A DNA stretch of 53,486 nt from an uncultured Roseburia sp. (GTDB taxonomy: Bacteria; Bacillota; Clostridia; Lachnospirales; Lachnospiraceae), in assembly GCA_947088345.1 (NCBI GenBank), contig CAMUGE010000019.1:1-53486 (forward strand). Reading direction: 5' to 3'. This document shows positions 31,717 through 53,353 of the stretch, one piece after another. Under the pieces are notes generated by a model. It saw only the letters and a program-made list of their open reading frames with translations. It was not told where the DNA came from and made no database searches. The position numbers and the translations under genes were made by a program. Numbering within the stretch: position 1 is the stretch's first letter; each line of letters begins with the position of its first letter.

Positions 31717-33561
31717 TTATACACCGGTCTGCTGGATTAGTTTATCGTAAATTTCTGCCATTACGGAAATCATCTTGGATGCAAGGTTATACGAATACTG
31801 GAATTTCAGCATATCAAGTCCTTCCTCATCCTCGTCAACACCGGAAATCGACATTCTCTGCGATTCGATCGTACTGCCCACATTATAATATTTTTCGTAA
31901 AAAATCTCGGACTCCTGTTTGTCTACCGATATATCGGCAATCATACATTTCAGGAAATCAGCCGCGTTTCCTCCGCGGTAAAGAGTGGTATTTTCATGTA
32001 ATTTTAACAGCTCCTCGCACAGATCATATGAATCGACGCCGCCGCTCTCAATTTCATGCTTATTGTCGTCGATGCTCTCCGGGTGCACGGTAAGACCTAT
32101 TTTATCGGGATGCGTTGCGCACACAGAAGAAATTTTTATATTGGCGGCAGTCATCTGATAGTAACAGTCATCCGTGCTTCCCGTCGGTTTATCGCCGAAC
32201 GCATACTCGTTTCCGTCCTTATCCGCTGCAGTAAAAAAAGCAAAATAGTCTGTCGGATCTCCGTTTAAATCCTCGCCTTTTTTCATAATATCATTAAATT
32301 TCTGCGTGAACGAACGCAAAAACTGGTTCATCTGCGCCATATAATAGGGAATACCCATTACATCGACTGCCGATCCGATCGACGCGGACTTTCCGTCCGC
32401 TTTTTCAATGTCCTGACTCGAAAGCGGCGCATCCAGATTAAATGTGTAGGAAGTCACTTCCCCCTTATCATTCGTCTCGAACGTAAACCCGTCATATTTA
32501 TAATCGCGTCCGTTGATTGTCAGGACTCCCTGCTGCGGCATCGTCATTGTCTCGACAGATGTAACCGACGGCGATGTCACCGTAATTTGTCTGGAATTAT
32601 CAATTTTGACAACCCCGGTAAAATTATCTGCATTGTTGCCGTCGCGTATATCAAAAAGGGCTTTCAGCGTGCCGGACATACTGTTGCCGCCCGCATAAAA
32701 TGTATTGCCTGTGTCTTTCCATTTGATACTGTAAAGTCCGTCCACATCCGACTGATTAATCTTTCTTTCACGTGAAACGCACTCCAACTGATTGTAATCG
32801 TAATCGTTGACTAAAATCTGTCCGTTTATTCTCACAGTATAATGCGTACCGCCTGTATACATATCCGGATATTTCGAATTTTCTACCGGCGCCTCTGTCG
32901 CCTCCACCGGTACAATCTTTGACAATTCGTCTACGAGCAGCGCTCTCTGATCGCGAAGCTCGTTTGCATATCCCCCCTGCACCTCAATCACGTTAATCTG
33001 TTTGTTGAGCAGCGATATTTTCTGTGCGATCGCATTGATATTGTCAACCGTGCTCTTGATTTCCTCATTCACATTGCCCTGAATATCGCTAAGCCCCTGT
33101 GCAACGCTGTTAAAATAAACCGCAAAGTCATGGGCGCTGGAAGTAAACTGCTGTCTCGTATTGACATCGCCCGCATTGGTTTTCAGAGTGTCCAGATTTG
33201 CAAACATTTTATCCATAATGGTGGAAAACCCTTCTTCTCCGGTATCAATAAAATAGTTCTCAATCTGATGAAAATAATTTAATCTGGATTCATACAGTCC
33301 GAGGGACGTCTGATTCTCCCAGTATCTGTGATCATAATAAAGATTTCTAAGCTGTGTTACGGACTCCGTTTTAACGCCTGTTCCGACTGCGCCATACGAA
33401 GTATAGGTGCGCAATGCGGAAGATGCCACTCTGTTCGCCTGCTGCTTGCAGTATCCCGGCGTTCTGACATTCGAAATATTGTTCGCTGTTGTATTTAATG
33501 CGACATGAAAAGAATTTAATCCTGACTGCGCAATGGTCAATCCAAAAAATGTCGATAACAT
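31717..33561 (-). CDS. flgK2: Flagellar hook-associated protein FlgK, second copy
   Basis: A 614-residue FlgK-type protein. N-terminal HAP1 region: MLSTFFGLTIAQSGLNSFHV and NTTANNISNVRTPGYCKQQA. The C-terminus (LDMLKFQYSYNLASKMISVM) forms the paired helix. It differs clearly from its neighbour at 33572, so it is a diverged paralogue, not a recent duplicate. It starts at 33561 behind GGAGAG and ends 24 bases before flgL. FlgK-type proteins sit at the hook-filament junction. Whether both are used together is unknown. Confidence 0.88.
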   Translation of the reverse strand: MLSTFFGLTIAQSGLNSFHVALNTTANNISNVRTPGYCKQQANRVASSALRTYTSYGAVGTGVKTESVTQLRNLYYDHRYWENQTSLGLYESRLNYFHQIENYFIDTGEEGFSTIMDKMFANLDTLKTNAGDVNTRQQFTSSAHDFAVYFNSVAQGLSDIQGNVNEEIKSTVDNINAIAQKISLLNKQINVIEVQGGYANELRDQRALLVDELSKIVPVEATEAPVENSKYPDMYTGGTHYTVRINGQILVNDYDYNQLECVSRERKINQSDVDGLYSIKWKDTGNTFYAGGNSMSGTLKALFDIRDGNNADNFTGVVKIDNSRQITVTSPSVTSVETMTMPQQGVLTINGRDYKYDGFTFETNDKGEVTSYTFNLDAPLSSQDIEKADGKSASIGSAVDVMGIPYYMAQMNQFLRSFTQKFNDIMKKGEDLNGDPTDYFAFFTAADKDGNEYAFGDKPTGSTDDCYYQMTAANIKISSVCATHPDKIGLTVHPESIDDNKHEIESGGVDSYDLCEELLKLHENTTLYRGGNAADFLKCMIADISVDKQESEIFYEKYYNVGSTIESQRMSISGVDEDEEGLDMLKFQYSYNLASKMISVMAEIYDKLIQQTGV

Positions 33562-33571
33562 AATCTCTCTC

Positions 33572-35329
33572 CTATCCAAGCTGTGTAATCAGATGCTCAA
33601 TCATCTCATTGATTACATTGATAAAACGGCTCGCCGCGTTGTAAGCATTCTGAAATTTGATCATAGTGACAAGCTCTTCGTCCGCCGAAACTCCAATCAC
33701 CTGCTGCCTTGCGTTGTCAGTCGACAAACTTCCGTCTGCCAGACTGTCCGCCGTAGCCTCATAGACATTTCCAAATGTCGCCATGTCATTTGACATACTG
33801 ATATAATAAGATTTAAAATCAATCGGCCGAAGATCATTTGGATTTAGATAAAAATCCTTTTGTTCCCAGATATCGGATAATTTCTGGATCGCATCGACCG
33901 CCACCATATCTCCGTTCTGATTCTGCATTAAATGAGGCATCAATGTCTCGTCTACCAATAATTCTTTATTGACGGAGAGACTTCGTATCGTGTACATATT
34001 CTTGCTGTCTGTCAGATCTTCTTCATTATAGATATAATATACATTGCCGTTCTCATCTGTCGCCTCTGTATAGCGGTCGCATCCGATTCGCGTAAACAAT
34101 TCCCTTGGCGGCAGCTTTTTGTCGGAACCGACCGGACAATTGTCGGCGTCCAGAATCAATGTATTTTTATTGATTACAATGTCCTTTCCGTCCGGACCTT
34201 TCAGTGTCGCCGTCCCATTTGCATCCCAGTTCTGGATATAATCAGACGCTGCGGTATTTGGGGCAAATATGTCGTTGACACTTGTTACAATCTTATGTAT
34301 CAACTGGTCTATCATCGCTTCCGCTTTTAACATAACGGACATTCCGGCATTATCATTGTATTCTTTCTGCGTCAAACCCTCAATATCGCGATAATCTGCA
34401 ACATGATCTCCTCTCGCCAGAATCAGCGCTTTCAGAGAACCCTTGTCATTTTGATTTTCCGGAGATATATCACGCCTGAAATCCATAACGTCGGTATATT
34501 GGTTTTTCTTTGGATCGGAAAGAAATTCCCAGTAAGGATCTACAAACCCCGTTGACGGGTCCTTGCGCATCCCGATATGGTTGTAACCGTTTTCATTTAC
34601 AAATTCAACACTGTCTATGGAAATTTTTAAAATACCGTCCGCTGTCTCATAGTAATCAAGTTCGACAAGACCTGCCAGCTCATCCAGCGCTTTATCGCGC
34701 TCGTCCCGCAATGTCATGGCCGTCTCAATACCCGCCGTCTCGATTTTCTTTATTGCCATGTTGCACTCGTCTATAAACTTGCCAAGTTCGTTCATGCGGT
34801 CAATATTGTCTTCTATCTGTGTATTGATGTTGTACTGGTATGTCTGCAGTCCGGAATAAACGGCAGACGCTCTGCTTATGAAAAGCTGCGATTTCTGGAT
34901 TACAAGCTCCTGGTATACACTGTCCTCCGGATATTTGGAAAGTTCCTCAAATGAAATCCAAAGATCCTCAAGCCCTTCCTGAAACGCTTTTCCCTCCAGT
35001 TCCTGAAAGTACGTCTCGACTTCACGCGAAGCCTCAGCCGTCTTATCATAAAACTGGTACCTTCCATAAGTAGAGCGGTATGATTTGTCTAAAAATACGT
35101 CTCTGGTATGACGCACGTCGCCGATTTTTACACCAAGACCGGACTGCTGTTTACTGACGGCAGCCGTCTGATTAAATGTGATATAATCTCTGTCCGAGTA
35201 AAAGACTCTCTGACGCACATAACCTTTTGTATCGATGTTGGATAAATTGTTCGCTGTCGTATTCAGGCCGTTCTGGCTGCTCTGAAGCCCGGATACGCCG
35301 ATAAATAAACTGCCAAAACCATTTGCCAT
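33572..35329 (-). CDS. flgK: Flagellar hook-associated protein FlgK
   Basis: A 585-residue FlgK: N-terminal MANGFGSLFIGVSGLQSSQN and LNTTANNLSNIDTKGYVRQR, C-terminal GVSADEELVTMIKFQNAYNA ending EMIEHLITQLG. These are the paired D0 helices of hook-filament junction proteins. The middle has long variable beta-rich domains. It follows flgN and is followed by the second flgK-type gene, so the locus carries two. Start ATG follows GGGAGGG-type ribosome site. Confidence 0.92.
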   Translation of the reverse strand: MANGFGSLFIGVSGLQSSQNGLNTTANNLSNIDTKGYVRQRVFYSDRDYITFNQTAAVSKQQSGLGVKIGDVRHTRDVFLDKSYRSTYGRYQFYDKTAEASREVETYFQELEGKAFQEGLEDLWISFEELSKYPEDSVYQELVIQKSQLFISRASAVYSGLQTYQYNINTQIEDNIDRMNELGKFIDECNMAIKKIETAGIETAMTLRDERDKALDELAGLVELDYYETADGILKISIDSVEFVNENGYNHIGMRKDPSTGFVDPYWEFLSDPKKNQYTDVMDFRRDISPENQNDKGSLKALILARGDHVADYRDIEGLTQKEYNDNAGMSVMLKAEAMIDQLIHKIVTSVNDIFAPNTAASDYIQNWDANGTATLKGPDGKDIVINKNTLILDADNCPVGSDKKLPPRELFTRIGCDRYTEATDENGNVYYIYNEEDLTDSKNMYTIRSLSVNKELLVDETLMPHLMQNQNGDMVAVDAIQKLSDIWEQKDFYLNPNDLRPIDFKSYYISMSNDMATFGNVYEATADSLADGSLSTDNARQQVIGVSADEELVTMIKFQNAYNAASRFINVINEMIEHLITQLG

Positions 35330-35360
35330 GGCGGTTCCCTCCCTGCCTTTTTAAATTCTG

Positions 35361-35873
35361 TTATTGCTTTGCATCAAATCCGCTTGTTCCCAGCAGGTCG
35401 CCTGTATTATTCGCGCTCCTGTCATAGTTTGCTGTCTCAGGCACCTGCTTCATGCTCCGCAGCAAGGTAAGGTCAAACTCTACCATCTCCAATGCCCTCT
35501 GTAAAAGTTCCTCGTTCTGCTGGTTTAATGACTGCATCTTTCCGCCTGTCTTTAAAAGTCTGTCACGCTGCTCCCTGAGCCGCTCCTGCTCCACGGGCTG
35601 TTTGTCCAGATATCCGATCAGCTTTGTGAGCGTAAGCTCCCCGGGGTCTTTACCGAGCACTGTTGCGATATCTTTTAAGACGGACGTCCGTCTGTGCGAA
35701 ATATTTAAAAGTTCGCTCGAAACATCCTGCTCTTTCACAGTCACTGCATCAAGAGCTGCGATATCGGCCTTTACAATCGCCTGTCTTTTCTCTTCCCCAA
35801 GCTTTGCCAATGTCTGGTATCTTGATTCCTCTTCGCCAAGGACTTCCAAAAGTTCTTCCATTAAACTAGCCAC
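35361..35873 (-). CDS. flgN: FlgN-family flagellar chaperone
   Basis: A 170-residue helical protein: MASLMEELLEVLGEEESRYQ, LGEEKRQAIVKADIAALDAV and ELLQRALEMVEFDLTLLRSM match FlgN, the export chaperone of FlgK and FlgL. It sits between flgM and the flgK genes, the usual order. GTG start with GAGGG six bases upstream. Confidence 0.88.
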   Translation of the reverse strand: MASLMEELLEVLGEEESRYQTLAKLGEEKRQAIVKADIAALDAVTVKEQDVSSELLNISHRRTSVLKDIATVLGKDPGELTLTKLIGYLDKQPVEQERLREQRDRLLKTGGKMQSLNQQNEELLQRALEMVEFDLTLLRSMKQVPETANYDRSANNTGDLLGTSGFDAKQ

Positions 35874-35890
35874 GATATACCCTCACTTTG

Positions 35891-36175
35891 TTAATTGTAT
35901 AGTGCATTGTATTTTTCCAATAATTTATTTGCGAAATCATTCGTATTCACATGATAATTACCAGAGTCGACTCTTCCCTTTAACTTTGCAACTTTATCTT
36001 CCCTGATATCTGAAGCATCTGCCACTGCCTGTTTTGCAATCTGGTAATCATATCCCAATGAAGAAATGGAAACTTCATCGCGGGCTGTGCTGCCTGTTTC
36101 CGCCGTTTTTGTAATTTTTGACGTTTTACCCGTTTTGTATACCGGATCTATCTTGTTGTAAGCTTCTATACGCAT
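35891..36175 (-). CDS. flgM: Anti-sigma-28 factor FlgM
   Basis: A 94-residue small protein. The polar disordered N-terminus and a C-terminal SYDYQIAKQAVADASDIREDK-type block (seen as YDYQIAKQAVADASDIRED), then KVAKLKGRVDSGNYHVNTND, fit FlgM. It binds sigma-28 until the hook is complete and is then exported. The gene has its own sigma-28 promoter, giving feedback. It starts the late flagellar operon. Confidence 0.93.
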   Translation of the reverse strand: MRIEAYNKIDPVYKTGKTSKITKTAETGSTARDEVSISSLGYDYQIAKQAVADASDIREDKVAKLKGRVDSGNYHVNTNDFANKLLEKYNALYN

Positions 36176-36243: not shown

Positions 36244-36252
36244 GAGAAAAAC

Positions 36253-36278
36253 AAAAAAAAGTCCGCTGTGCGAACTTT
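36253..36278 (-). terminator. Rho-independent terminator of the Ter operon
   Basis: A 9-bp stem (36258-36266 with 36270-36278, one G-T pair) with loop of 3, followed on the minus strand by a run of eight T. It ends the P-type ATPase transcript just before the flgM promoter. Confidence 0.85.
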
Positions 36279-36311
36279 CTTTTGTATCGAAAACTGTTTG
36301 TTTTCCGATAT

Positions 36312-38969
36312 TTAATTGCTCTTTGTAACAGCTTTGCGCAACAGATCTACCGGTATCATCGTAATTGCAAGCAGCAGAACAATCAACCATCCTGCCGGGC
36401 CAAACGGCACGCAACTGAACATTTTACCGATAAAGTGGAATGCCTCAAACGGCACAAGCGCTGCATTGACGATAATCGCCTGTATAATTATTACTGTAAA
36501 AAATACTTTCAAAAATCCGGTATTCTCATTCAGACCTTTAAAAATACCAAAACCGTCGTCACGGACATTAAAACCGTTAAATAGTGCGCTCACAATAAAG
36601 AGAACAAAATATCCGGTCAGATGCTGTTCCTCATTTGCAAACAGATTCTGGAAAAACGGCAGTTTTAAATACAGGAAACTGACCAGAACCAGCCAGGCGC
36701 CCATAACGCCGATCTGAACCGCCATATTTTTACTGATAATGCCCTCATCCCTGCGGCGCGGCTTCTCGTCCATATATTTTGCAAGCGCCGGCTCGTTTCC
36801 AAGCATAATTGCGCCAAGTCCGTCCATAACAAGGTTAACAAACAAAAGATGCGTTACTTTTAAAGGCTCTTCCACTCCAAAAAACGGAGCGATTGCGCTG
36901 ACAACCACGGCCGTCACATTGATGACAAGCTGGAATTTACAGAACTTTAAAATATTATGATAAATTGTTCTGCCGTACCAGATCGCATCTTTGATGGATT
37001 TGAAATTGTCATCCAAAATTACAATTTTTCCTGCTTCTTTGGCCGCCTCCGTGCCGCTTCCCATTGCAAAGCCCACATCCGCCCGCTTTAATGCCGGAGA
37101 ATCGTTGACGCCGTCGCCCGTCATGCCGACAACAAGGTTCATCTCCTGGCAAAGGCGTACCATTCGGGATTTATCAGTCGGGAGCGCTCTTGCAATAACA
37201 CGAATATCCGGAATAATCCGTTTTACCTCGTCATCCGACATTGCGTTTAATTCTGCGGAGGAAATAGCCCGGTCGGAATTAGTCTTTAAAAGACCGGCAT
37301 CTTTTGCAATGGCAACCGCAGTTTCAAGACGGTCGCCCGTAATCATAACGACCTGGATGCCGGCTTTCTGTACCTCTGCTATGGCGTCTTTTGCCTCCGC
37401 ACGAACATCGTCGCGAATACCCACAAGACCGATAATGACAACATCGTCGTTGATCTTGTTTTCCGTCATAGCCTGCTCCGAATAGCCAAAGGCAAGCACA
37501 CGCATTGCTTTTTCGGCAAGCGCGTCAATCTTTTTGTCAAGCGCCGCTTTGTCGATTGTCTTAATCTCTCCGTTGGCGTCGAGATATTTCGTGGATGCGC
37601 CGAGCAGACGCTCCGGCGCGCCTTTATAGAATGTCTTGCCCTCGCTGTCTATTCTTGCCTGACTGAATTTGTTGGTGGAATTAAATCCCTGGCTTTTTGT
37701 GATTACACAGTTTTTATCTTCCGCAAGCGCATGGAATGTGTTCTCCCCAAGAAATTTCATCATTGCCTGATCGGTTGCGTTTCCGCCGATCACACGGTGG
37801 TCTGCGTCATACATAGACTGCGTATTTTTACCGATCGCAAGATTGACAAGCCGCTTTACCCGGGTGTGTTTCTCCAGATCCGCAAGCGGGATGGAATTAC
37901 CGTCAGCCGTAAAGAAATCGACAACTTCCAGCATACCTTTTGTAATCGTCCCGGTCTTATCGCTGAACAGAATATTTAACGAACCTGCTGTCTCAATTCC
38001 TTCCGCTTTGCGCACAAGTACGTTATGGTCTAACATCTTGCTTGTATTCTGCATCAACACGAGGGAGATCATAAGCGGAAGTCCCTCCGGCACAGCGCAG
38101 ACGATAATAACAACGGCAAGCGATACGGCCTCTACAATTTTTTGTATCACGTCTTTCATGCCAAGTGCAAAGAAATCGCCGACACCGCCGGCAACAATAA
38201 CAAAATGCACCAGATAAAGCACTGCGATTACAATCGCGCCGATATAACCGAACGTGGAAATCTGTTTTGCCAGAATACTCAGTTTTACTTTTAACGGAGA
38301 ATCCGGCTCTTCTTCCTGCATTTCCTCCGCCATCTTACCCATCATTGTCTTCAAACCGACTTTTCGCACATCCAATACGCCCTCGCCGTCAAAAACAACG
38401 GCGCCGCGAAACAGCGAATAACTGTCGACAAACGTATCGCCGGTAATATCTTCGGCAAGCTGTGTATCGGACGACGCGGCAGTCTTTTTGCATTCTTCCG
38501 CCTCTCCGTTCAATGCAGAATTGTCTACTCTTAAATCTCCATACACTAAAATACCGTCCGCGGGTATTTTGTCTCCCGACTGCAGCAGCACTTTATCCCC
38601 GACAACAACATCATCGACGTCAATCACAGTAATTTCACCGCTGCGGTATACTTTACACTGATCTTTTTTTGTGCTGTCTTTCAGCTCGCGGTATTTGGTG
38701 TCGCTTGCAACTCCCGTTTTTGCTGAAACAAAAGCCACAATCAGTACTGCGACAATGGTTCCCAGCGGCTCATAGATATCCGCGTAGCCGAAAAAGAACA
38801 TTACAATCATAAGCGCCGCGATAACAAGCAGTATCCGGATCATCGGGTCGCCAAATGTCTCTTTAAATTCCTCCCAGAAAGTAGTTGGCTCCGAATCCGG
38901 TATTGTATTGGCTCCATGCTTTTGTCTGGACGAAGCGACTTCCTGATCGCTTAAGCCTTTAAACTCCAT
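36312..38969 (-). CDS. Calcium-type P-type ATPase (P2 group)
   Basis: An 885-residue membrane pump. N-terminal soluble part, then membrane segments from about residue 45. Seen are the PEGLP ion-site motif (294-298), the phosphorylation motif DKTGT with Asp337, the TGDRLETA nucleotide motif, the MTGDGVND hinge and the NLVMDGLGA segment in helix M6. The order and the PEGL motif fit calcium P2A/P2B pumps; the actuator loop has LNGEAEE in place of the usual TGES. The ATG at 38969 follows GGGAGG; the longer ORF has no ribosome site. It closes the Ter operon, where such ATPases often accompany TerD proteins. Confidence 0.92.
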   Translation of the reverse strand: MEFKGLSDQEVASSRQKHGANTIPDSEPTTFWEEFKETFGDPMIRILLVIAALMIVMFFFGYADIYEPLGTIVAVLIVAFVSAKTGVASDTKYRELKDSTKKDQCKVYRSGEITVIDVDDVVVGDKVLLQSGDKIPADGILVYGDLRVDNSALNGEAEECKKTAASSDTQLAEDITGDTFVDSYSLFRGAVVFDGEGVLDVRKVGLKTMMGKMAEEMQEEEPDSPLKVKLSILAKQISTFGYIGAIVIAVLYLVHFVIVAGGVGDFFALGMKDVIQKIVEAVSLAVVIIVCAVPEGLPLMISLVLMQNTSKMLDHNVLVRKAEGIETAGSLNILFSDKTGTITKGMLEVVDFFTADGNSIPLADLEKHTRVKRLVNLAIGKNTQSMYDADHRVIGGNATDQAMMKFLGENTFHALAEDKNCVITKSQGFNSTNKFSQARIDSEGKTFYKGAPERLLGASTKYLDANGEIKTIDKAALDKKIDALAEKAMRVLAFGYSEQAMTENKINDDVVIIGLVGIRDDVRAEAKDAIAEVQKAGIQVVMITGDRLETAVAIAKDAGLLKTNSDRAISSAELNAMSDDEVKRIIPDIRVIARALPTDKSRMVRLCQEMNLVVGMTGDGVNDSPALKRADVGFAMGSGTEAAKEAGKIVILDDNFKSIKDAIWYGRTIYHNILKFCKFQLVINVTAVVVSAIAPFFGVEEPLKVTHLLFVNLVMDGLGAIMLGNEPALAKYMDEKPRRRDEGIISKNMAVQIGVMGAWLVLVSFLYLKLPFFQNLFANEEQHLTGYFVLFIVSALFNGFNVRDDGFGIFKGLNENTGFLKVFFTVIIIQAIIVNAALVPFEAFHFIGKMFSCVPFGPAGWLIVLLLAITMIPVDLLRKAVTKSN

Positions 38970-38982
38970 TTTGTCCTCCCAT

Positions 38983-39573
38983 CTAGCCGATATAACGGTT
39001 TGCAAGCTGCCCCAGACCCGGATCATTCGTCCCCTGGCCGATTGCATTAAACTTCCACTCGCCGTTATGCCTGTAAACTTCGCCAAAAATCACTGCCGTC
39101 ATCCCGGAATACTCTTCCGTCAGATTATATTTTAATAATTCCGTATTATTTCTGGCATCCACGATGCGGATAAACGCATTCTCAATCAACCCGAAATGCT
39201 GTTTTCGCTTGACACAGTCATAAATATTGACTACGACCACAATCCTGTCATACTCCTGCGGTACGCGGGAGAGTTCCACAATGATCTGCTCGTCGTCGCC
39301 CTCGCCTGCGCCCGTTAAATTATCGCCCATATGCTGAACGGTACCGGACATATGCGACAGATTCCCGAAATAGACAATATCTTCTTTCTGCATCAGCTTT
39401 CCGTCTCTTAACAGCAATGCCGAAGCATCGCAGTCAATCGGCGCCGGCTTCGGGGCAAAAAATCCTCTTTTCTGCTTTACTTCATCCCATCCAAGGCCGA
39501 TGATAACTTTGGAAAGTCCTGCATTGTCTTTCGTCAAGCTGACTTTCTGCCCTTTTTGTAAACTTACTGACAT
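38983..39573 (-). CDS. TerD-domain protein 1 (TerD/TerZ type)
   Basis: A 196-residue TerD-fold protein: [56 protein letters not shown] and [16 protein letters not shown]. TerD domains bind calcium through acidic loops and act in cytoplasmic stress complexes near the membrane. Here the DxDA site has Cys-Asp instead of the canonical DLDAxA. It starts at the ATG (39573) behind GGAGGAC; a TTG five codons before is out of ribosome range. The ATPase follows after 13 bases. Confidence 0.95.
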   Translation of the reverse strand: MSVSLQKGQKVSLTKDNAGLSKVIIGLGWDEVKQKRGFFAPKPAPIDCDASALLLRDGKLMQKEDIVYFGNLSHMSGTVQHMGDNLTGAGEGDDEQIIVELSRVPQEYDRIVVVVNIYDCVKRKQHFGLIENAFIRIVDARNNTELLKYNLTEEYSGMTAVIFGEVYRHNGEWKFNAIGQGTNDPGLGQLANRYIG

Positions 39574-39615
39574 TTTTAAGTCCTCCAAATTATAGTATGT
39601 GAAATATTCACATTT

Positions 39616-40197
39616 TTATGCAACCTCAATTCCATAATGGCCGCAAAGCGCCGCAAGACCGCCCTGGAAACCGCTGCCGATCGCATTAAATTTCCACTCG
39701 CCGTTATGTCTGTAAAGTTCCCCGACAACTACGGCAGTCTCTATGGAAAAATCTTCGCCAAGATCGTAACGGATCAGTTCTCTGCCGCTTGTCTCGTCAA
39801 TAATATGGATGTAAGCATTGGATACCTGACCAAAATTCTGTCGTCTTGTGTCGGCCTCATAAATGGTAACGGTAAATGCAATTTTTGCAATACTGTCCGG
39901 AATTTTGGAGAGATCGATCTTGATCTGCTCGTCGTCGCCCTCGCCCTCGCCGGTTAAGTTGTCGCCCATATGTTTTACGCCGCCGCTCGGATGCTCTAAA
40001 TTACTGTAGAACACGAACTCTTTTTCTGACGGGCATAAACCGTTCTGACCCAGCATAAATGCTGCGGCGTCAAGGTCGAAATCAGCTCCTGAATCAAACT
40101 GGTTTACATCCCACCCAAGACCGACTAAAATATTCTTCAGTCCCGGATTCCCCTTTGTAAGGTCTACTTTCTGTCCTTTTGATAAATTAATTGGCAT
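39616..40197 (-). CDS. TerD-domain protein 2
   Basis: A 193-residue canonical Ter[57 protein letters not shown] and [16 protein letters not shown]. The acidic loops carry all the calcium ligands. It lies 42 bases from the TerD gene at 38983 and follows TelA. Two TerD copies are common in Ter loci. Confidence 0.97.
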
Positions 40198-40250
40198 GTT
40201 TTGTTCCTCCCTTTTCTTTTATATCAATTGAAATTCCGCTGCCTGCGGGT

Positions 40251-41405
40251 TCAACTGTTCACTTTGTCCGGCATGTGGTACATTTTATTAAATTCGGCCT
40301 TGAGATTTTCAAGCCTTGCCTGATCTTCAATACGCTGTTTCTTTGCATTTTCCTGAATGCGTTTCGTCTCGTCAATTCCATTGACGATCGTACGCCATGT
40401 TGTCTCCAATGTCTCAATCCGTATGGAGCTGCCGGATGCCATCCGTGCAGTCATCTTAGACTGTTCAACCGTATTCTGCGCATTTTTAATCAGCAGCTCG
40501 TTTGTCTTTTCGTCGAGTGCGCTCATTGCTTCCGCCTGAATACGCTGGCGTTTTAACATAATTGCCTGTGCAAGCGCCTGTTTAAAAACAGGAAGCGTGA
40601 TGATAAATGCGGAATTGATCTTCCTGACCAGATTCATATTGGAAAATTCCATTGTCTTGATCATCGGAATAGACTGCATCGCAACGCTTTCCGCCGTTCT
40701 TAAGTCCTGTGTCCGCTGCTCTAACATCATCAACGCCTGCTGCAGGGAATTGAGTTCGAACTGAATCGAGTTATCGCCCGTTGTTTCCAGATCAGTCTGC
40801 CTTTGCGCAATGTAATTCTCCAGTTCCTTGCAGCCCTGTTCGCCTGCCAGAATATATTTTACAAGCTCATGATAATAGCCCACATTGGCGTCAAACATCT
40901 GGTCAAGCTTTCGGTTCGACTGTTTGATCTCTGACTCATACTGCTTTAACTGGACATATATTTTGTCCACTTCATCACCCATGGTATGATATTTGTTTAA
41001 AATTTTGTCCAGCTGTTTGCGAAGATTGCCAAATAATTTTCCAAAAAGCGACGGGTTCTCTTTCAGCTCGTCAATATCAAACTTCTCCATCACTTTTGCA
41101 AGTGTGTTTAACATTTCGCTGGACTCGTCGATCTGCGACATACTCATGCCGTTTAACACGACGTCCGACGCTTTGGAAATCTCCTCGGCCGCTTTCGCGC
41201 CGAATGTAACGATACTCTCTAAATTGTCAATTTCTATGGTGCTGACTAACGCATCCACCTCCTCGGAGCCGACAAGCTGTGTGTTCATCTGTTCCCGATC
41301 GGAAACGATATCATATTTTTCAACCACCATAACCTCATTCTGCGTCGATGTTGCGGGGTTATCCGCCACAGCAGGCGACGCCGTCCTGCTAAAATCCAAT
41401 CCCAT
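40251..41405 (-). CDS. TelA/toxic anion resistance family protein (YceH-like)
   Basis: A 384-residue helical coiled-coil protein of the TelA family: SIVTFGAKAAEEISKASD, the LFGNLRKQLDKILNKYHTMG region, and long Lys/Glu/Gln-rich helices with NMNLVRKINSAFIITLPVFK. In Bacillus the homologue YceH lies next to YceG. TelA proteins work at the membrane in tellurite and phage/envelope stress, mechanism not settled. It starts 5 bases after YceG and is followed by two TerD genes. Confidence 0.93.
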   Translation of the reverse strand: MGLDFSRTASPAVADNPATSTQNEVMVVEKYDIVSDREQMNTQLVGSEEVDALVSTIEIDNLESIVTFGAKAAEEISKASDVVLNGMSMSQIDESSEMLNTLAKVMEKFDIDELKENPSLFGKLFGNLRKQLDKILNKYHTMGDEVDKIYVQLKQYESEIKQSNRKLDQMFDANVGYYHELVKYILAGEQGCKELENYIAQRQTDLETTGDNSIQFELNSLQQALMMLEQRTQDLRTAESVAMQSIPMIKTMEFSNMNLVRKINSAFIITLPVFKQALAQAIMLKRQRIQAEAMSALDEKTNELLIKNAQNTVEQSKMTARMASGSSIRIETLETTWRTIVNGIDETKRIQENAKKQRIEDQARLENLKAEFNKMYHMPDKVNS

Positions 41406-41410
41406 TTGTT

Positions 41411-43705
41411 TTATCCTCCATTTCGTTTGAATATTTTATCCCACAGTGAAGCATGCTCCTGCCCGCCTCTTTGCCTGCTTCCGGAAACCAGTCTGAAATC
41501 AGGGACATGCAGATCATAGACATAATCGCCGATCTGATGTTCCTCCATAATCTCTCTGTCGTAATATTTTTCAACGGTCTGATAACCGGTCGGAACAAAA
41601 AAGATGACGTCAAATCCAATCAGGTTTAAAAATGCCGCCATAATACTGTCTTCCAGGGAAATGACCTGTTCTGTCGTATTGATATAAATTAATTTCGGAT
41701 TTTTTCTGGTAAAATCAAACTGCTGAATCAGGCGCACAATCTCTTTCGGAAGATTTAAGACTGTTGCCACGATTGTATATTCCATGCCGTTTTGAAACGT
41801 ACCGCGAATGTTTTTCTGATCTATCAACAGCTGCAGTTTGTTTAATATGTGATCCTGTACTTCATCGCGCAGTACTCCATAGGGATACTGCGGATTCGCT
41901 TTGATCTTTGCACGCTGTACTTTCCCGTTTTTAAAAAATTCGGTTGCATGGGAACGCATCGGATTTGGCGCTTCGGAACTAAGATACGGAACATGTTTGA
42001 CAAGATATGTGTCCGTCGTCAGGAGCGCTTTGATCTGAGACCAGTACTGCGGCATGTTTCTGTCTTTTACACCCGATATTTTGGAGAAAATAACAGGGAT
42101 ATTCACAATATCTTCCACCGTGCTGAAGTTCGGACGGTACTTTAGTTCCTGATCCCAGAGTATTGCAATTTCCTCGTACATCGTCTGAAGCGTTACGGAA
42201 ATTGCTTTCTCATACTGTCTGTTACGGTAGATTCCGGAATCCTGGTACATCATGTTGTCAAGTTCCCGCTCGGCATGGTACGCCGCCGTACCCATATGAA
42301 GTTTGGTGTTTTCACTCGGAAAATGTCTGACCGACATGGAATCCTGGTAATGTATCTCATAGAGTCTGCTGTCTTTGAGGACGCACCTGTCGTTTAAATT
42401 CGGTACAAATATCATAACGTCCACCGGAAGCCTTGAAAGCCATTTTAAAAACAACGCTTCCTTATTGCCTGCGCATGCGCCAAAATACAGAAAACATGCG
42501 ACAGCAGGCATTTGCCAGCCCGCAAACAGCCCGGACTGGTAGCGCTTCATCCAGCAGAGCAGATAGACGGCCCGGTTGGTCAGCTTATTCAGGTTCATAT
42601 CCGGCAGTTTTGCCTCCTCCAGCATCACATCCAGAAATGTCTGATGCATCAGTCGCTGCAGCTCATTGTTGGAAGCGAACCTTATATTCTGAGAGATATC
42701 TGCAAGCATCTGATCGCGCGTCTGGTAGCTTCGCCGCTTTATGGCGCCGATCTCTTCTGTAGTCGGTTCGGCCATCCTTGCCTCTACAATAAGTATTTTT
42801 CTTTTTTGATTCTTTAATTCCAGCTGCAGCTGATAAAGTTCATTCAGATAAGTCAGTTTGTCCTCCGCCCCATAGATGCAGATAAAACAATTATAATAAA
42901 ATCTGGCGTCTTTTCCTCTCTCAGGAACACTTTTTTTGCAGTCTTCCAGTCCCTTTCCGTCAATCCAGACATTTGTGCAGGGAGAGATTGCGGCGCGCTG
43001 CCCATAGAGACGCTCGTTGTCTTTTTCTTCCCGAATCTCCTGCATAATCTTTTCCAGTGAAAAATCGGGCGGGAACGCTTCTAAATGATCGAGTTTCAGA
43101 TTATCCGAATAATAATCTCTCCCATCCAGTTTTTTATAATTTTCGTCACCGTGATACTGCAGCAGCACAATATCACAGCCGCACCCCGCCAGCACGGAAA
43201 ACATCAAAAGTTCATAATTCCCGATCTCGCCTTCATACAATATTTTGGGAACTTCCTCCATTCCCAGGCGATTTACAATCGGCTCAAATTTGTAGTAGAG
43301 CCAGCACATAAATTTGATATAGGCATTTTTTAACATATTGTCATTTTTGCCCATCTGCTTTAAAACCGTAAGACAGTCATAGATCGAGTCGGCCATTTTC
43401 ACTCTCTGGCTTTTGCTCATGCGCGGCAGCCACTTTGCAAGCTTTTCCTGAAAAAAAGCAGACTGCGGCATAAAATCCTGTCCCATTATTTCATTATAAT
43501 AGGAAAGCTGTTTCTCATTTGGATTGGGCAGTTTTCCTATAATGGCAACGCCGCTTGTGCGCGCTTTCTCGAAATAGGCGCGTACAAACGTATGAATCTG
43601 TTCATTATAGCCGTTAATCCGATAAAAGTATATCCCTTTTTCATGCCTTGCGCTGTAATTTAGAAAAAAGTCATTTAATTGCTGAATTTTTTTGTGTTCG
43701 TACAT
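41411..43705 (-). CDS. yceG: YceG-family protein (Ter-system component)
   Basis: A 764-residue cytoplasmic protein of the YceG family, known from the tellurite/stress operon yceC-H of Bacillus. The start MYEHKKIQQLNDFFLNYSAR, the SVLAGCGCDIVLLQYHGDEN block and the end (AAFLNLIGFDVIFFVPTGYQ; IGDYVYDLHVPDF) fit. The family is thought to contribute to production of a nucleoside-like metabolite in Ter systems (proposed). A related C-terminal pattern recurs in the protein at 44273. It starts at ATG 3 bases after the rhomboid stop region. Confidence 0.88.
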   Translation of the reverse strand: MYEHKKIQQLNDFFLNYSARHEKGIYFYRINGYNEQIHTFVRAYFEKARTSGVAIIGKLPNPNEKQLSYYNEIMGQDFMPQSAFFQEKLAKWLPRMSKSQRVKMADSIYDCLTVLKQMGKNDNMLKNAYIKFMCWLYYKFEPIVNRLGMEEVPKILYEGEIGNYELLMFSVLAGCGCDIVLLQYHGDENYKKLDGRDYYSDNLKLDHLEAFPPDFSLEKIMQEIREEKDNERLYGQRAAISPCTNVWIDGKGLEDCKKSVPERGKDARFYYNCFICIYGAEDKLTYLNELYQLQLELKNQKRKILIVEARMAEPTTEEIGAIKRRSYQTRDQMLADISQNIRFASNNELQRLMHQTFLDVMLEEAKLPDMNLNKLTNRAVYLLCWMKRYQSGLFAGWQMPAVACFLYFGACAGNKEALFLKWLSRLPVDVMIFVPNLNDRCVLKDSRLYEIHYQDSMSVRHFPSENTKLHMGTAAYHAERELDNMMYQDSGIYRNRQYEKAISVTLQTMYEEIAILWDQELKYRPNFSTVEDIVNIPVIFSKISGVKDRNMPQYWSQIKALLTTDTYLVKHVPYLSSEAPNPMRSHATEFFKNGKVQRAKIKANPQYPYGVLRDEVQDHILNKLQLLIDQKNIRGTFQNGMEYTIVATVLNLPKEIVRLIQQFDFTRKNPKLIYINTTEQVISLEDSIMAAFLNLIGFDVIFFVPTGYQTVEKYYDREIMEEHQIGDYVYDLHVPDFRLVSGSRQRGGQEHASLWDKIFKRNGG

Positions 43706-43706
43706 T

Positions 43707-44288
43707 CTAATACCTGTTCATTTTATTTTTATTCATCACATACCCCAGGCCCGATCCTACAAATCCGCCCAGAATATGCGTCAGATTTGAGATATTGTCT
43801 GTTACAAACAGCCCGTTATAAATCTGTCCGCCAATGTAGATCACTGTAATCAGAATAAATGTAAGCGGAATAGATCCCTCTCTGATACTGGTAAATGAGG
43901 AGAGCAAAATCAGCGCAAATACAATTCCACTTGCGCCAAGCAGCTGTACATGAGGAAACAGCAGCATGTGTGCAAGCCCCGTGACAATTGCCGTGGCCAA
44001 TATGACAAACAGCATATTGGAAGAACCGTATTTTTCCTCCAAAAGCGGACCGATTACAAGTATCATCATGATATTCCCCAGAAAATGGTCCCAGTTGGCA
44101 TGGCCAAATACATGACCGATCAGTCGCACATAGGTAAACGGTTTTAACAGAGAGGAACGGTATACACTGAAAATCAGATCATTTGTCATTCCTTTTGTTA
44201 TGGCGTCTAACAGATAAGCTGCAAAACAGATTACAGTAAAGCCAAGAATAATCGGTGAGTTAAACGATATTTTTAATTTTTTCTGCAT
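43707..44288 (-). CDS. Rhomboid-family intramembrane serine protease
   Basis: A 193-residue membrane protein with about six hydrophobic helices. The catalytic dyad is visible: Ser120 in the GASGIVFAL motif and His171 in SNLTHILGG. The HANWDHFLGN motif (His68, Asn72) supplies the oxyanion residues. The start is the ATG at 44288 behind GGAGG; it overlaps the upstream protease gene's 3' end by 16 bases, so translation is coupled. Inside a Ter operon it may cleave or sense membrane proteins. Substrate unknown. Confidence 0.9.
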   Translation of the reverse strand: MQKKLKISFNSPIILGFTVICFAAYLLDAITKGMTNDLIFSVYRSSLLKPFTYVRLIGHVFGHANWDHFLGNIMMILVIGPLLEEKYGSSNMLFVILATAIVTGLAHMLLFPHVQLLGASGIVFALILLSSFTSIREGSIPLTFILITVIYIGGQIYNGLFVTDNISNLTHILGGFVGSGLGYVMNKNKMNRY

Positions 44289-45874
44289 CCTGTAAATCCT
44301 CCGATAAACATATTGATACATTCATATCCCATCGCCAGGTTGATATTCTGTGCGCTCTCAATCCCGGCAGTACTGATGCCTATGACTTCGCCGTACATGT
44401 TTAACAGCGCGCCGCCCGAACTGCCCGGCGATGTTGGCGCGGTAAACTGTATCATATCTACTGTGTCAATTGTACGGAACCCTGATATAATGCCGTCCGA
44501 AACCGAATTAAAAAATCCGAGCGGACTGCCGATGGCGACTACTTTCTGCCCGCGCGCCAACGGTTCTTTTCCCTGATAGACGGGGAGCGGACGAAGCCGC
44601 CTTGGAATACGGATCACGGCAAGATCCAAAACGGAGTTATATTTTATCAGTTCATCTGTATCGTAAATATTCTCGTCGTCTTCTATCCGGACGGAATAGG
44701 AGTAGCCCCCTCCGGTAACATGGTTGTTTGTCAGTATGTACCCCTCTTCTCCGACCATAATCCCGGAACCGGTGCCCATGACTTCGCCTTTTTTATCGCG
44801 TATCGCAATCATTACGACAGAGGAGGCAAGCTGCGCCAGTTCCTCAAACGTAAGTTCTCTTCTTTCTGACAAAGATCCTGATGCAGACCTCACACTTCCG
44901 GTGACAGGCGGCCTGCGGTTTCCCGCTCCCGAAATCCCTGCCGTACTCCCGGGAGAAGACGGCCTGCGGCTTCCTGCTCCCGTTGTGCCGGATGGAGACG
45001 GCCACCGGCTCCCGGTCGGCCTGCCTAAACCGCATTCCGGCGGCGCCCCGGCGCTGCGCCCGGAAGAAGACCGCACCTGATTGGGCAGCTGTCCGGCTTC
45101 CTGCACCGCTTTTTCTCTTGCTTTTTGTTCCCGTTTCGGATGGCGGACGTCTACGCGGATCGGTCTTCGTTCGTTGTTTGCGATCTGCTGCCCGGCCGGA
45201 AGAACACAGGCTCCAAACTCCCCAAGCACAAACTCTTTTGACAGGTTAAGCGCCTTTAACTCCACATCCAGATCAATCTGCGTCTGGAGCAGCAGCACAT
45301 CGAATCCGAGCAGCGTCAGAAAATAAAAAAACAGATAGTCCTGTTTTTTCGTAATGTTTTCTGCCGCAATCTTTACGGAAAGGCGTTCATTCCACTGCGC
45401 GAACAACCCGTCTGTGAGCCAGTCAAACCAAAAAAGGATTTTAGTGATAAAATTTTTTTCTGCAGTTTCATTTGCCGCCGCACCGCTCTTCCATTGCGCC
45501 AGCACATCGGCGCATGCTTTCCCCAAAACTGCGCAAAATTCCGGCTGTCCGTCTGTTCTTTTCGTTACAGCGCTGATTTTTCCGCTCTGCCGCCATCCGT
45601 TGTAACTGTTCTGATAATAATCAGCGTCCCCGGCCAATGTCATTGCAGGAAGCGATGAGATACGTCTGTAACAGCATCTGCCGGTCTGCATAGACGCTCC
45701 AAGCGTCTGATCCATCTGTGCAACCTGACTTTCAATTTTGTCATTCCTTCCAAGCGCACGCACAAAGTATACATCTTTGCAGTCTTTGTTAATCCCGCCC
45801 CTGATATTCTCAAATGCGGAGATTGAAAATATTCCCATAACATTATGACGAAATTTTAAGATCCGAGTTTGCAT
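44273..45874 (-). CDS. YceG-like segment fused to trypsin-like (HtrA-type) serine protease
   Basis: A 533-residue protein. The first 230 residues include LFFYFLTLLGFDVLLLQTQ and EFVLGEFGACVLP, which parallel the YceG C-terminal region of the protein at 41411. Then comes a linker rich in Gly, Ser, Pro and Arg (about 240-345) built from degenerate GC-rich repeats. Residues about 350-530 are a trypsin-fold protease: His385 (TNNHV), Asp417 (VLDLAV), Ser486 (GSSGGAL). No signal peptide, so it is cytoplasmic. It is first in the Ter operon, with a weak promoter upstream. It has no PDZ domain. Confidence 0.85.
   Translation of the reverse strand: MQTRILKFRHNVMGIFSISAFENIRGGINKDCKDVYFVRALGRNDKIESQVAQMDQTLGASMQTGRCCYRRISSLPAMTLAGDADYYQNSYNGWRQSGKISAVTKRTDGQPEFCAVLGKACADVLAQWKSGAAANETAEKNFITKILFWFDWLTDGLFAQWNERLSVKIAAENITKKQDYLFFYFLTLLGFDVLLLQTQIDLDVELKALNLSKEFVLGEFGACVLPAGQQIANNERRPIRVDVRHPKREQKAREKAVQEAGQLPNQVRSSSGRSAGAPPECGLGRPTGSRWPSPSGTTGAGSRRPSSPGSTAGISGAGNRRPPVTGSVRSASGSLSERRELTFEELAQLASSVVMIAIRDKKGEVMGTGSGIMVGEEGYILTNNHVTGGGYSYSVRIEDDENIYDTDELIKYNSVLDLAVIRIPRRLRPLPVYQGKEPLARGQKVVAIGSPLGFFNSVSDGIISGFRTIDTVDMIQFTAPTSPGSSGGALLNMYGEVIGISTAGIESAQNINLAMGYECINMFIGGFTGCRKN
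44895..45030. repeat. GC-rich degenerate minisatellite in the protease linker
   Basis: Three imperfect units of the type GGAGACGGCC...GGCTCCCG, coding Gly-Arg-Pro/Ser-rich repeats. The GC content is far above that of the flanks, which fits slipped-strand expansion inside the linker. Confidence 0.6.
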
Positions 45875-45907: not shown

Positions 45908-45937
45908 ATTATAACATAAGCGCTTGAAGTTGTGGAA
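45908..45937 (-). promoter_or_regulatory. Candidate promoter of the Ter operon
   Basis: Minus strand TATAAT (45908-45913) with an extended TG one base upstream; the -35 region (TTCCAC at 18 bases) is poor. It precedes the protease gene by about 35 bases. Confidence 0.4.
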
Positions 45938-46041: not shown

Positions 46042-49000
46042 TTAATGAATCTGGGACAAAATATTCGGGTCCTTAATTTTATTGTCCTCCGCAAACAACA
46101 ATATCTTAGACATTATCTCCGCCGTTTTCGGATCGTCGTCGACAAATGGAAGGAAAATGCGGCCTCTGTGCTGGGAGTGGACAGGGATGACATACAGCAT
46201 GGCATTTCCCTGCTGGTGTACGACGCCGCTTCCAAGATGAATCGTATACTGACCGAGCTTGCCGTCGATATAAGCATGATTTTTTTCCAGACGAACATTT
46301 TTGATTTTAAACAGTTCCAGATTGCAAGCCACAATCGCACTGCGCATCTCTATTGTGGAGTGACTTGTCTCAGGATCTACGCCGCCTGCGTGCGCAACGC
46401 TGACCGCAAGATCTACATCGCGCATCACCTCACTGTAAATAATATCCGGAATTTCTTCTATTTTAAGCCACGCGCCGGTCTTTCGGTCGGAAAATACGAC
46501 CCAGTCCAGGGTCGGGGCCTCCACATCGCTGGGCGTAAACCAGTCGGCCATCGCATAGATACGGGCGACAATATTCTCCCGATAGTATACTTTCTGCAGG
46601 CCGTCGTCGTAATCCGCAACCCAGCGGCGGCTGCGAAGCGCGCCAACTGTTCTCTGCGGCTGAATCTGATTGCCGGAAAACATCAGGGATTTCTCCTGCT
46701 TTAATTCCTCGTTCAATTTCACATAAAGTTCACGGAATACCTGCTTAAACGGCTGTTTTAACTGCTTTTCGAACAAAAGCTTCTGATAATCCTGCCAGTG
46801 TCCGCTCTGCAGCAGATCGAACGGATGTGCAATCAGAATCGTATCCTGCGGCTTGACAGGGGTAATATCCCCTTTCCAGTCAACAATGCCTTCTTCTGTC
46901 AAAAAGCCCATACATCTGGTTTGTGCCCGCTGCAGGCTTTCCTCCCGCAGAACGACAATTTTACTGTCGTTTTTTTCCATCGCGACATTTTTACTGTCTT
47001 CTTTTTCGCTGCCCCCGCGCTTTGCCTTTTTGGATGATTTTTTTGCTGCAGCATCCTCCTGCGGAATGCGTTCTCTTGCAGTGTCAAACGCACTGTCATA
47101 TTTCATAACTACCAGCGGCTTTACAATCGGACTCACAACCGGATTTTTTGCAAGTTCCAAAAATTCCCATACCTCAAATGTTGTGCCGTCCTCCATCGCC
47201 TGTTCCATCATCTGCTTTGTCCTGCTGTACTGTTCCTTTAATTTCTTATTCATCTGCTGGAAATCAAGTACAGTTTCATGCTTTTTGTATTTCGCCGGTA
47301 TTGATTTTAATATTTTTTCATCTTTCCGGCACCGAATCGTACTCTTGCCGTTTTCATCCACTGCAATCAGCAGCTCGATTTCCCCGACCGCATTCCAGTC
47401 AAAATACGGCGCTGAGATCTCGACAAGCCTGTTTTCCATGCGCAATACCAGACGTGTCACATCGTTAAATCCGGCATTCACGCTTAAATTCTGCAATGCA
47501 ATCTCTACAGCGCGACCCTCGCTGGCACGGCGCTGCGCACCGAACTGGCGGCTTTCTTTTTTAAATTTCTGAATATACTGATAACGGTCGAACAGATCGG
47601 CGTCGCGCTCTTTTCTTTTTTTGGAGAGCGGCAAAAGTCCGATACTCATCAAAAGATCCTTATTTCGCTTGCTGTCAATTTCCTCTTTCAGCGCGCTACG
47701 TTCCACCTGTCCAAGCGCTGCGTTTGCGTATTTTCTGGCCCGTCCATGCGCCGTTCCGGTTGAAGAATATTTTGCCGCATCATAGAGAAGTTTAAAATCC
47801 TTTTCCCCAAGCCTGTTGTAAGCCTCAAAAAACCAGTTGATGTCAAACGCTCCGTCGTGCAGCTCTTCCGGAGAGAGCGGCGTATATTTTGCAATCATAG
47901 ATGTTGTGTATTCGTCAAACGCTTCGCTGGTATGCGCCATAAAATAATAACAGCCGCTTGCAAACCCCGGCAGTTCAAGATATTCCTCAAGCATCGGAAT
48001 CCACTGGTCGGCATACATGGCAAGCTCTACAAGACGTTTTTTTGTGATATCAGCGCCTTTTAACGCCGCTTTTAAATCCTTTACCGACTCTTGCGGTTTC
48101 GGTCTGCAGATCTTCAGCAGATGGCTTAATACAGATTTCCGTTCTTCGTTACTTGAATAATAACTGTAGCCCCGCTGAAGCGTGTCTTTTCCCAGCGCCG
48201 TTAAAATCTGTATCATATAGTCAATCCCATAGACGACATGAATGCTGTGGATACCGGACGAAAACGGCGTCGGCTGCTCGCCGCGCTTTAATTCCACTTT
48301 TAAAACAGAGGGGATAATCTCCCGATAAATTTCATGCGCCAGCTTCATGGCAGGCATTTCGTCCCCAATCGCATCAAAGCTGTATTTTCCGTCTGCCGGC
48401 CTGATTACATCATTTCCGAAAAAGCGATTTACATCGCTCATATAGGCATTGCGCAGCGACAAAGGCCCGATCTGCTCGACTGCGCTGACCGGCCCAAAAA
48501 GTGCGTCTATGTTTAAGAACCGGAATACCGCCTTATATACCATATCTTTATCCCAGTATCCCCGGACAAAGCATTCAACAAAATCCTTCAGATACAAAAA
48601 GTTGTTACCACCGCTGTAAGAATAGCGCGATTTTTCCCTTCCTTTTTGTTTGTCATAATATTCCTGCAAACCAAATCGAATCGTAAACGAAGTTCCCCAG
48701 TCTGCATCCTCTACCTTGGAAAGCCACCCGCACAATTCATTAAAAATCGGCAGCTCTGTCGCACGTTTGGAATAGGTTTGTTCCCTGTCTCCCCAGTAAC
48801 GCTCTGTATAAAAATACAAATCATTTTTTTCGTCCAGTAACGAAAGCAGCCTCGCCACAGCCGGCAACGCCCAATGTGACATCAGCGAATCCGGCACATA
48901 CTGTTCAAACAGTACGTTTATAACTGTATTTACCTGTGAATTGTAATCAATATCCAGTCTTAAATTAACAAACGGCTGACTGCTGCCGAATATCTTTTGA

Positions 49001-51334: not shown

Positions 51335-51392
51335 ATTTTCCCCCTTTTTTTGCAAATTTCACACGAACCAACATGCCGCGGCTCTGCCGCGA

Positions 51393-53287: not shown

Positions 53288-53353
53288 AATTTTCATCTCT
53301 CTTTTGCTTTTTTTGTGCAGGTTGCTGTTGTTTTTTCCTTATATGATGATTTC

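Follow-up and report, generated by a model that had tools for sequence, protein, structure and literature searches.

Why does a Ter stress operon carry two protease genes, and do their products work as one unit? This question is raised by a locus on contig CAMUGE010000019.1 of an uncultured Roseburia sp. (Lachnospiraceae, assembly GCA_947088345.1), whose 53,486 nucleotides (nt), the whole stretch that was analysed, are called the window here. Seven genes, all on the minus strand between 36312 and 45874, encode a fusion of a YceG-like domain with a trypsin-like protease, a putative rhomboid, YceG, TelA, two TerD proteins and a predicted Ca2+ P-ATPase. An earlier note on this DNA had described them as a Ter operon ended by a strong terminator, which the coordinates, Pfam matches, intergenic gaps and terminator fold confirmed, and had combined the protease and the rhomboid into a single proteolytic branch, which was not supported. 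We found that both genes recur upstream of YceG in relatives, that their presence is independent of each other, and that the protease subfamily was confined to YceG-bearing genomes in the samples searched. The features, with the evidence for each in brackets, are as follows.

44273..45874, minus strand: gene 1, YceG_bac-like domain, linker and S1C trypsin-like protease domain (Pfam, alignments, profile-profile match)
43707..44288, minus strand: gene 2, putative rhomboid intramembrane serine protease (Pfam; GlpG as PDB relative; dyad; start codon)
41411..43705, minus strand: gene 3, YceG with three tandem YceG_bac repeats (Pfam)
40251..41405, minus strand: gene 4, TelA (Pfam)
39616..40197, minus strand: gene 5, first TerD (Pfam; alignment to solved TerD 2kxt/2kxv, 3ibz)
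38983..39573, minus strand: gene 6, second TerD (Pfam; start site)
36312..38969, minus strand: gene 7, predicted PMCA-type Ca2+ P-ATPase (Pfam; TIGR01517; start site)
36251..36285, minus strand: intrinsic terminator (predicted fold)
45908..45936, minus strand: promoter-like site 5' of gene 1, TCCACA and TATAAT separated by 17 nt, with TG before the second hexamer (consensus match only)

The Ter core is identified by its Pfam matches: YceG_bac three times in YceG (E 1e-119), TelA (E 1e-102) and TerD twice (E 2e-84 and 2e-76), all in one operon, so that the Ter assignment of the earlier note was upheld. The first TerD aligned with solved TerD proteins, and YceG had no relative among solved structures by sequence. 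Gene 7 matched E1-E2/cation ATPase. The intergenic gaps down the operon are -16, 1, 5, 53, 42 and 13 nt, the first being the overlap of the protease and rhomboid genes. GGAGG stands just 5' of five of the seven starts, the exceptions being those of the protease and YceG; judged by start codon and GGAGG site, the starts of the rhomboid, the second TerD and the P-ATPase are most likely 44288, 39573 and 38969 rather than 44321, 39588 and 39086. The terminator, read from 36285 to 36251, folds at -18.3 kcal/mol (z -6.0), and none of 200 shuffles was as good. L064, the closest relative with a name (an uncultured Roseburia sp. whose YceG is 96% identical), carries these seven genes in unchanged order. 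The ratios of non-synonymous to synonymous substitution (dN/dS) between the window and L064 were 0.044 (protease domain), 0.072 (rhomboid) and 0.055 (YceG), a conservation that excludes a chance origin of the operon; the N-domain and the linker of gene 1 gave 0.19 and 0.37.

Gene 1 consists of a YceG_bac-like domain at about amino acids (aa) 1-235, a linker at about 236-335 and a protease domain at about 336-527, with Pfam matches to YceG_bac (aa 35-205, E 9e-10) and Trypsin_2 (aa 369-500, E 3e-25). The homology of the N-domain to YceG was supported by a profile-profile match (probability 96, E 7e-9). The protease domain is an HtrA-type S1C catalytic domain whose triad, H385, D417 and S486, was kept in 57/57 related proteases, and its nearest solved relatives include RsgI9, HtrA1, DegP and DegQ. 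Pfam found no PDZ domain in gene 1, and against the Do family model TIGR02037 the protein scored 108 bits (cut-off 416 bits). No signal peptide or convincing membrane stretch was apparent by hydrophobicity; since the N-terminus is not hydrophobic and strong internal hydrophobic stretches are missing, the protease should be cytoplasmic. All 57 proteases entered the triad check and all 44 rhomboids the dyad check reported below, and the structure alignments comprised 50 of the 57 proteases and 53 of 81 YceG proteins.

As a separate observation, the linker, otherwise fast-evolving, contains a motif of about [VI]x[VI]x[LI]P[EPQ]R in 30/57 proteases (0.5 expected by shuffling), repeated up to three times in, for example, L069, L071, L080 and L089. 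A stricter form occurred in 27/56 proteases, in 6/10 ATP-grasp open reading frames (ORFs) and in none of the 1,112 remaining ORFs with at least 120 aa at the 80 loci described below. The motif was defined post hoc, after the sequences had been viewed, and is a weak lead; the window protease has a degenerate version only, the strict form being absent.

Gene 2 encodes 193 aa and matched Rhomboid in Pfam (E 3e-20); its three NCBIfam matches all stayed under the equivalog cut-offs. The Ser-His dyad, S120 and H171, was kept in 44/44 rhomboids, and H63-H68-N72 in the 42 rows reaching that stretch. Known rhomboid relatives cleave within membranes. L114 and L123 keep remnants of the rhomboid gene, which suggests that its absence from some loci is due to recent loss.

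How the two genes are distributed was determined from a named-genome scan for YceG, which gave 481 relatives, the best 80 of which were kept; these 80 loci are biased towards close relatives and share members with the family genome sample below. Same-strand genes within 3 kb upstream of YceG were counted, and 66 of the 80 loci were informative, 14 with less than 2.8 kb upstream of YceG having been dropped. The protease was upstream of YceG in 50/66 loci and the rhomboid in 33/66. This recurrence rules out that the two genes are peculiar to the window genome, and their position directly upstream of YceG in relatives, rather than in a single genome or far from the Ter genes, supports the idea of the earlier note that they are standing parts of a Ter variant. 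The same survey gave 26 loci with both genes, 24 with the protease only, 7 with the rhomboid only and 9 with neither, so that the two do not always co-occur; their presence was independent (Fisher p 0.77, 66 loci), and on the YceG tree of the 66 loci and the window the protease and rhomboid states change 11 and 15 times, respectively. Constant pairing is ruled out by the separate occurrence, the independence and the separate tree changes, and the single-branch claim is not supported. Where both genes were present among all 80 loci, the order protease, rhomboid, YceG was fixed (30/30). Two loci needed special scoring: in L132 the protease is adjacent on the opposite strand, and in L119 the operon has the N-part of a fusion at its 3' end, where the contig stops. 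Both were scored as lacking the protease among the 66, and L132 as protease-bearing in the metabolite-module test below.

Genome samples were used for a wider view, one of 150 Lachnospiraceae genomes, one per genus, and one of 398 genomes from the phylum. YceG_bac occurred in 16/150 family genomes. The protease subfamily (E 2e-64 or better) was found in 9/150, all nine YceG-positive, and in 0/134 YceG-negative family genomes; in 8 of the 9 its gene immediately preceded YceG or the rhomboid. Of the 16 YceG-positive family genomes, three (the window genome, G054 and G016) showed the rhomboid at the operon, a count that lacks the stretch upstream of YceG in G076, which is off the contig. Across the phylum, YceG_bac was found in 16/398 genomes and the protease subfamily (E 3e-86 or better) in 3/398, the window genome being included in both counts; all three were YceG-positive, and since at most three candidates per genome were scored, misses are possible. 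In G475 the fusion stands convergent to the operon at its far end, and in G300 it is on a different contig from YceG. Two of the six next phylum matches had other architectures (InlB-like repeats; a copper amine oxidase N-domain). Among plasmids, no match reached 80% coverage of the query; of the 715 matches, the ten listed comprised the trypsin part only.

Relatives of YceG are also encoded by three faecal records labelled 'Bacteriophage sp.', MT836648.1, MT838549.1 and MT837772.1 (57, 40 and 31% identity). These short, unannotated human-faecal records are likely misassigned bacterial contigs, the alternative being phage-borne Ter genes.

With 550 bits, the P-ATPase exceeded the cut-off (507 bits) of the curated PMCA-type Ca2+ ATPase model TIGR01517 (NCBIfam), and gene 7 is, judged by its sequence, a PMCA-type Ca2+ ATPase with predicted Ca2+ transport. 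No match to TerC (PF03741) was found in the window genome (90.5% complete), the control being positive in 9/14 known genomes. TerC was present in 8/31 YceG genomes, none of them in the family, and 23/31 were without it, so that TerC is no constant feature; it exceeded the cut-off in 1/150 family genomes vs 98/398 phylum genomes. Because its absence within the family is background, only the 15 YceG genomes outside the family count for the relation of TerC to the pump. Among these, TerC was found in 0/6 genomes with a P-ATPase in the stretch around YceG and in 8/9 without one (Fisher p 0.0014, uncorrected for kinship), pumps being scored around YceG only. The 15 genomes cluster by family, f89 contributing three and f14 and f61 two each. 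The six extra-family pumps were typed by BLAST to the window pump alone, with L160 and L165 below 40% identity. By coordinates, TerC is inside the fetched YceG stretch in 4 of the 8 (G288, G377, G463 and G544). We read this as an exchange of the membrane ion module, TerC vs pump, with moderate support.

The P-ATPase itself is distant, at 32-35% identity to that of the window, in L094, L098, L108, L109, L111, L112, L114, L115, L117, L123 and L125, where the rest of the operon core is kept.

Genes for ATPgrasp_Ter, PRTase_2-TRSP, StiP-PELOTA, C-C_Bond_Lyase and HAD phosphatase border the operon in relatives and together make up the Ter metabolite module; one example of each was scanned by Pfam, whose labels link ATP-grasp and StiP to Ter or tellurite, and the rest were assigned by BLAST. 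Counted over the 41 of 80 loci that were full (about 10 kb on both sides, 39 being dropped), they occurred at 8, 26, 31, 31 and 37 loci, respectively. None is near the window operon; of StiP, PRTase-TRSP and the C-C lyase, which were searched for in the whole window genome (90.5% complete), the first two stand together on contig C42 and the lyase was not found. The module was present at 30/34 full-length loci with the protease vs 2/7 without it (p 0.003), an association that was not significant in tree-independent pairs (4 pairs, well-supported branches) and is a weak lead.

Our favoured explanation is a membrane-linked Ter core of TerD, TelA and YceG in a Lachnospiraceae form, equipped with a pump and with a cytoplasmic HtrA-like protease docked through its YceG-like domain, and we put its probability at about one half. 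It builds on the gene content, the operon, the catalytic residues, the purifying selection, the recurrence, the restriction to YceG genomes and the protease/rhomboid independence observed above. Also in its favour are the homology of the N-domain to YceG, the PMCA typing of the pump, the TerC contrast outside the family, the TerD alignment and the module association. Docking, a Ca2+ signal, proteolytic activity, substrates and the pump/TerC exchange would be added to these in the following way. The PMCA-type Ca2+ pump may occupy the place held by TerC in some relatives. The YceG-like domain would dock the fusion onto a YceG/TelA/TerD assembly, the protease domain moving on a flexible linker. 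TerD proteins bind Ca2+, and TerD could read Ca2+ or a stress signal and thereby direct proteolysis near the membrane and the pump, with damaged or regulatory proteins as possible targets. The rhomboid might be a separate, optional accessory on the membrane side that cuts or escorts a damaged pump or secretion substrates. A bolder version, in which the Lachnospiraceae Ter systems are Ca2+-controlled proteolytic machines whose pump displaced TerC, with an S1C protease plugged into YceG/TelA/TerD and the rhomboid optional, is offered tentatively and seems rather doubtful to us; if it were true, stress on metals or the envelope would be turned straight into local proteolysis.

Several observations weigh against the favoured explanation. 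Neither the protease nor the rhomboid was directly upstream in 9/66 loci, and no such protease turned up in seven of the 16 YceG-positive family genomes, two of these (G016, G020) having contigs that end inside the cluster. The fusion stands outside the YceG operon in L155 and L156, and the G076 protease is found on a different contig, followed by other genes. In one clade, nine proteases lack the YceG-like domain, no trace of which was found in the 1.6 kb upstream (a tenth short protease, L102, is cut by a contig end and was not counted), so docking through this domain cannot be a universal requirement. As for the pump, a comparison with TerC inside the family carries no information, since TerC is nearly absent there.

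Other explanations were weighed against the same data. The two proteases could form one cascade, the cytoplasmic enzyme finishing the rhomboid cut or one activating the other, as the fixed gene order and the 16-nt overlap in the window would fit; however, the independent presence, the occurrence of one without the other in 24 and 7 of 66 loci and the separate state changes on the YceG tree make this unlikely. Also unlikely, and to a similar degree, is that the protease acts on a specific partner rather than on damaged proteins, as a switch that would mature a Ter component such as an N-terminally extended TerD, StiP or the pump. The module association hints at such a partner, and the linker motif recurs in proteases and in ATP-grasp ORFs, but the former loses significance in tree-independent pairs, and the latter was found post hoc and is absent in its strict form from the window protein.

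A role in defence or conflict, with the YceG-like domain sensing phage or nucleotide signals and triggering suicidal proteolysis, would agree with the fast evolution of the linker and with PMC7159879, where trypsin-like peptidases are frequent effectors in predicted conflict systems in which TerD domains also occur. When six of the seven operon proteins, the second TerD being left out, were submitted to PADLOC, none gave a full-length match to known anti-phage defence protein models; the hits were confined to the trypsin domain of gene 1 (RT-Protease, 51 bits) and to a weak, incomplete match of TelA (18 bits). On this result the locus was rejected as a defence island, and the strong purifying selection on the protease domain and the co-conservation of the operon with a metal and metabolite gene set leave the effector role quite improbable. 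Finally, both proteases might be unrelated house-cleaning genes hitch-hiking on a mobile Ter block. They are repeatedly lost or gained, with the rhomboid remnants mentioned above, and the protease is sometimes elsewhere (L119, L132, L155, L156, G076); but in the samples searched its subfamily was confined to YceG genomes, it shares the YceG domain, and it is directly upstream of YceG in 50/66 loci, so that passive assembly has very little to recommend it.

Around the operon, the upstream DUF5724/DUF4132, HEAT-like and SEC-C genes were rejected as system members, being found at 0/41 full-length relatives and 0/80 overall. At 46042-51355 of the window, DUF5724 is spread over two overlapping ORFs, one of 463 aa (model positions 12-403) and one of 1308 aa (408-1214, together with DUF4132 and DUF7737), which may be either a natural split or a frameshift. 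A SEC-C/DUF1186 ORF at 51983-53296 gave partial PADLOC matches to models of candidate defence systems (PDC-S12, E1-E2; up to 37 bits), all within its SEC-C region. Directly downstream of the terminator, on the same strand at 31717-36175, FlgK-, FlgN- and FlgM-type ORFs were recognised by eye and look like flagellar hook-associated and regulatory genes. Further TerD genes of the window genome are on contigs C3, C10 and C21 (L052, L053, L054): one adjoins an AIM24 gene, a pair stands beside a phosphoesterase-rubrerythrin ORF, and one, at the end of its contig, is a fusion of TerD with a TerF-type vWA domain.

Tellurite, rare in nature, is a poor guide to the role of the Ter proteins. A conserved protease joined to a Ter-specific domain offers a biochemical handle, since its substrates would reveal the purpose of the system. 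Many gut Lachnospiraceae carry the protease-fused Ter cluster, which suggests a protein-cutting step in the Ter stress system. If TerC has been exchanged for a Ca2+ ATPase, as it appears, the idea of TerC metalation would be linked to calcium handling in major gut bacteria.

How does the operon compare with known systems? Within the Bacillus subtilis yce genes, we take YceC, YceD and YceE to be TerD-like and YceH to be TelA. The yceC-yceD-yceE-yceF-yceG-yceH operon belongs to the sigma W/B/M regulon according to PMC3498285, and resembles the window operon in placing YceG in a multi-gene stress operon; as listed there, it is without a protease or rhomboid. YceF is MeeF, of the TerC family, and B. 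subtilis TerC proteins are reported to help metalate exported enzymes (PMC10550928); the window operon contains a Ca2+ P-ATPase and nothing that corresponds to yceF. Gene 1 shares the catalytic domain and triad with HtrA/DegP (S1C) but has no PDZ domain, apparent signal peptide or membrane anchor, and a YceG-type N-domain in their stead. Gene 2 has the dyad of GlpG-type rhomboids and differs in being small (193 aa) and part of a Ter operon. A Ter-family domain N-terminal to a trypsin-like protease has been in print since 2008 in Pseudomonas syringae YP_273108.1 (PMC2605481), whose domain is TerD and not YceG, and which appears in the passages concerned as a single protein of a survey, with no operon. 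Among the listed titles, opening lines of abstracts and text passages that the literature searches covered, which did not include the 2012 Ter survey, there was no YceG-trypsin fusion or Ter rhomboid. That survey, by Anantharaman, Iyer and Aravind, which PMC12054061 and PMC4633105 cite, reportedly described Ter-dependent stress response systems by comparative genomics. With these systems the window operon shares TerD, TelA and YceG, and its relatives also carry metabolite-module genes; it differs in that TerC was not found in the genome, in its PMCA-type pump, and in the YceG-trypsin fusion and rhomboid upstream of YceG. Without claiming priority, we regard the operon as most likely a variant form of the Ter system already known, in which a protease would dock on YceG/TelA/TerD.

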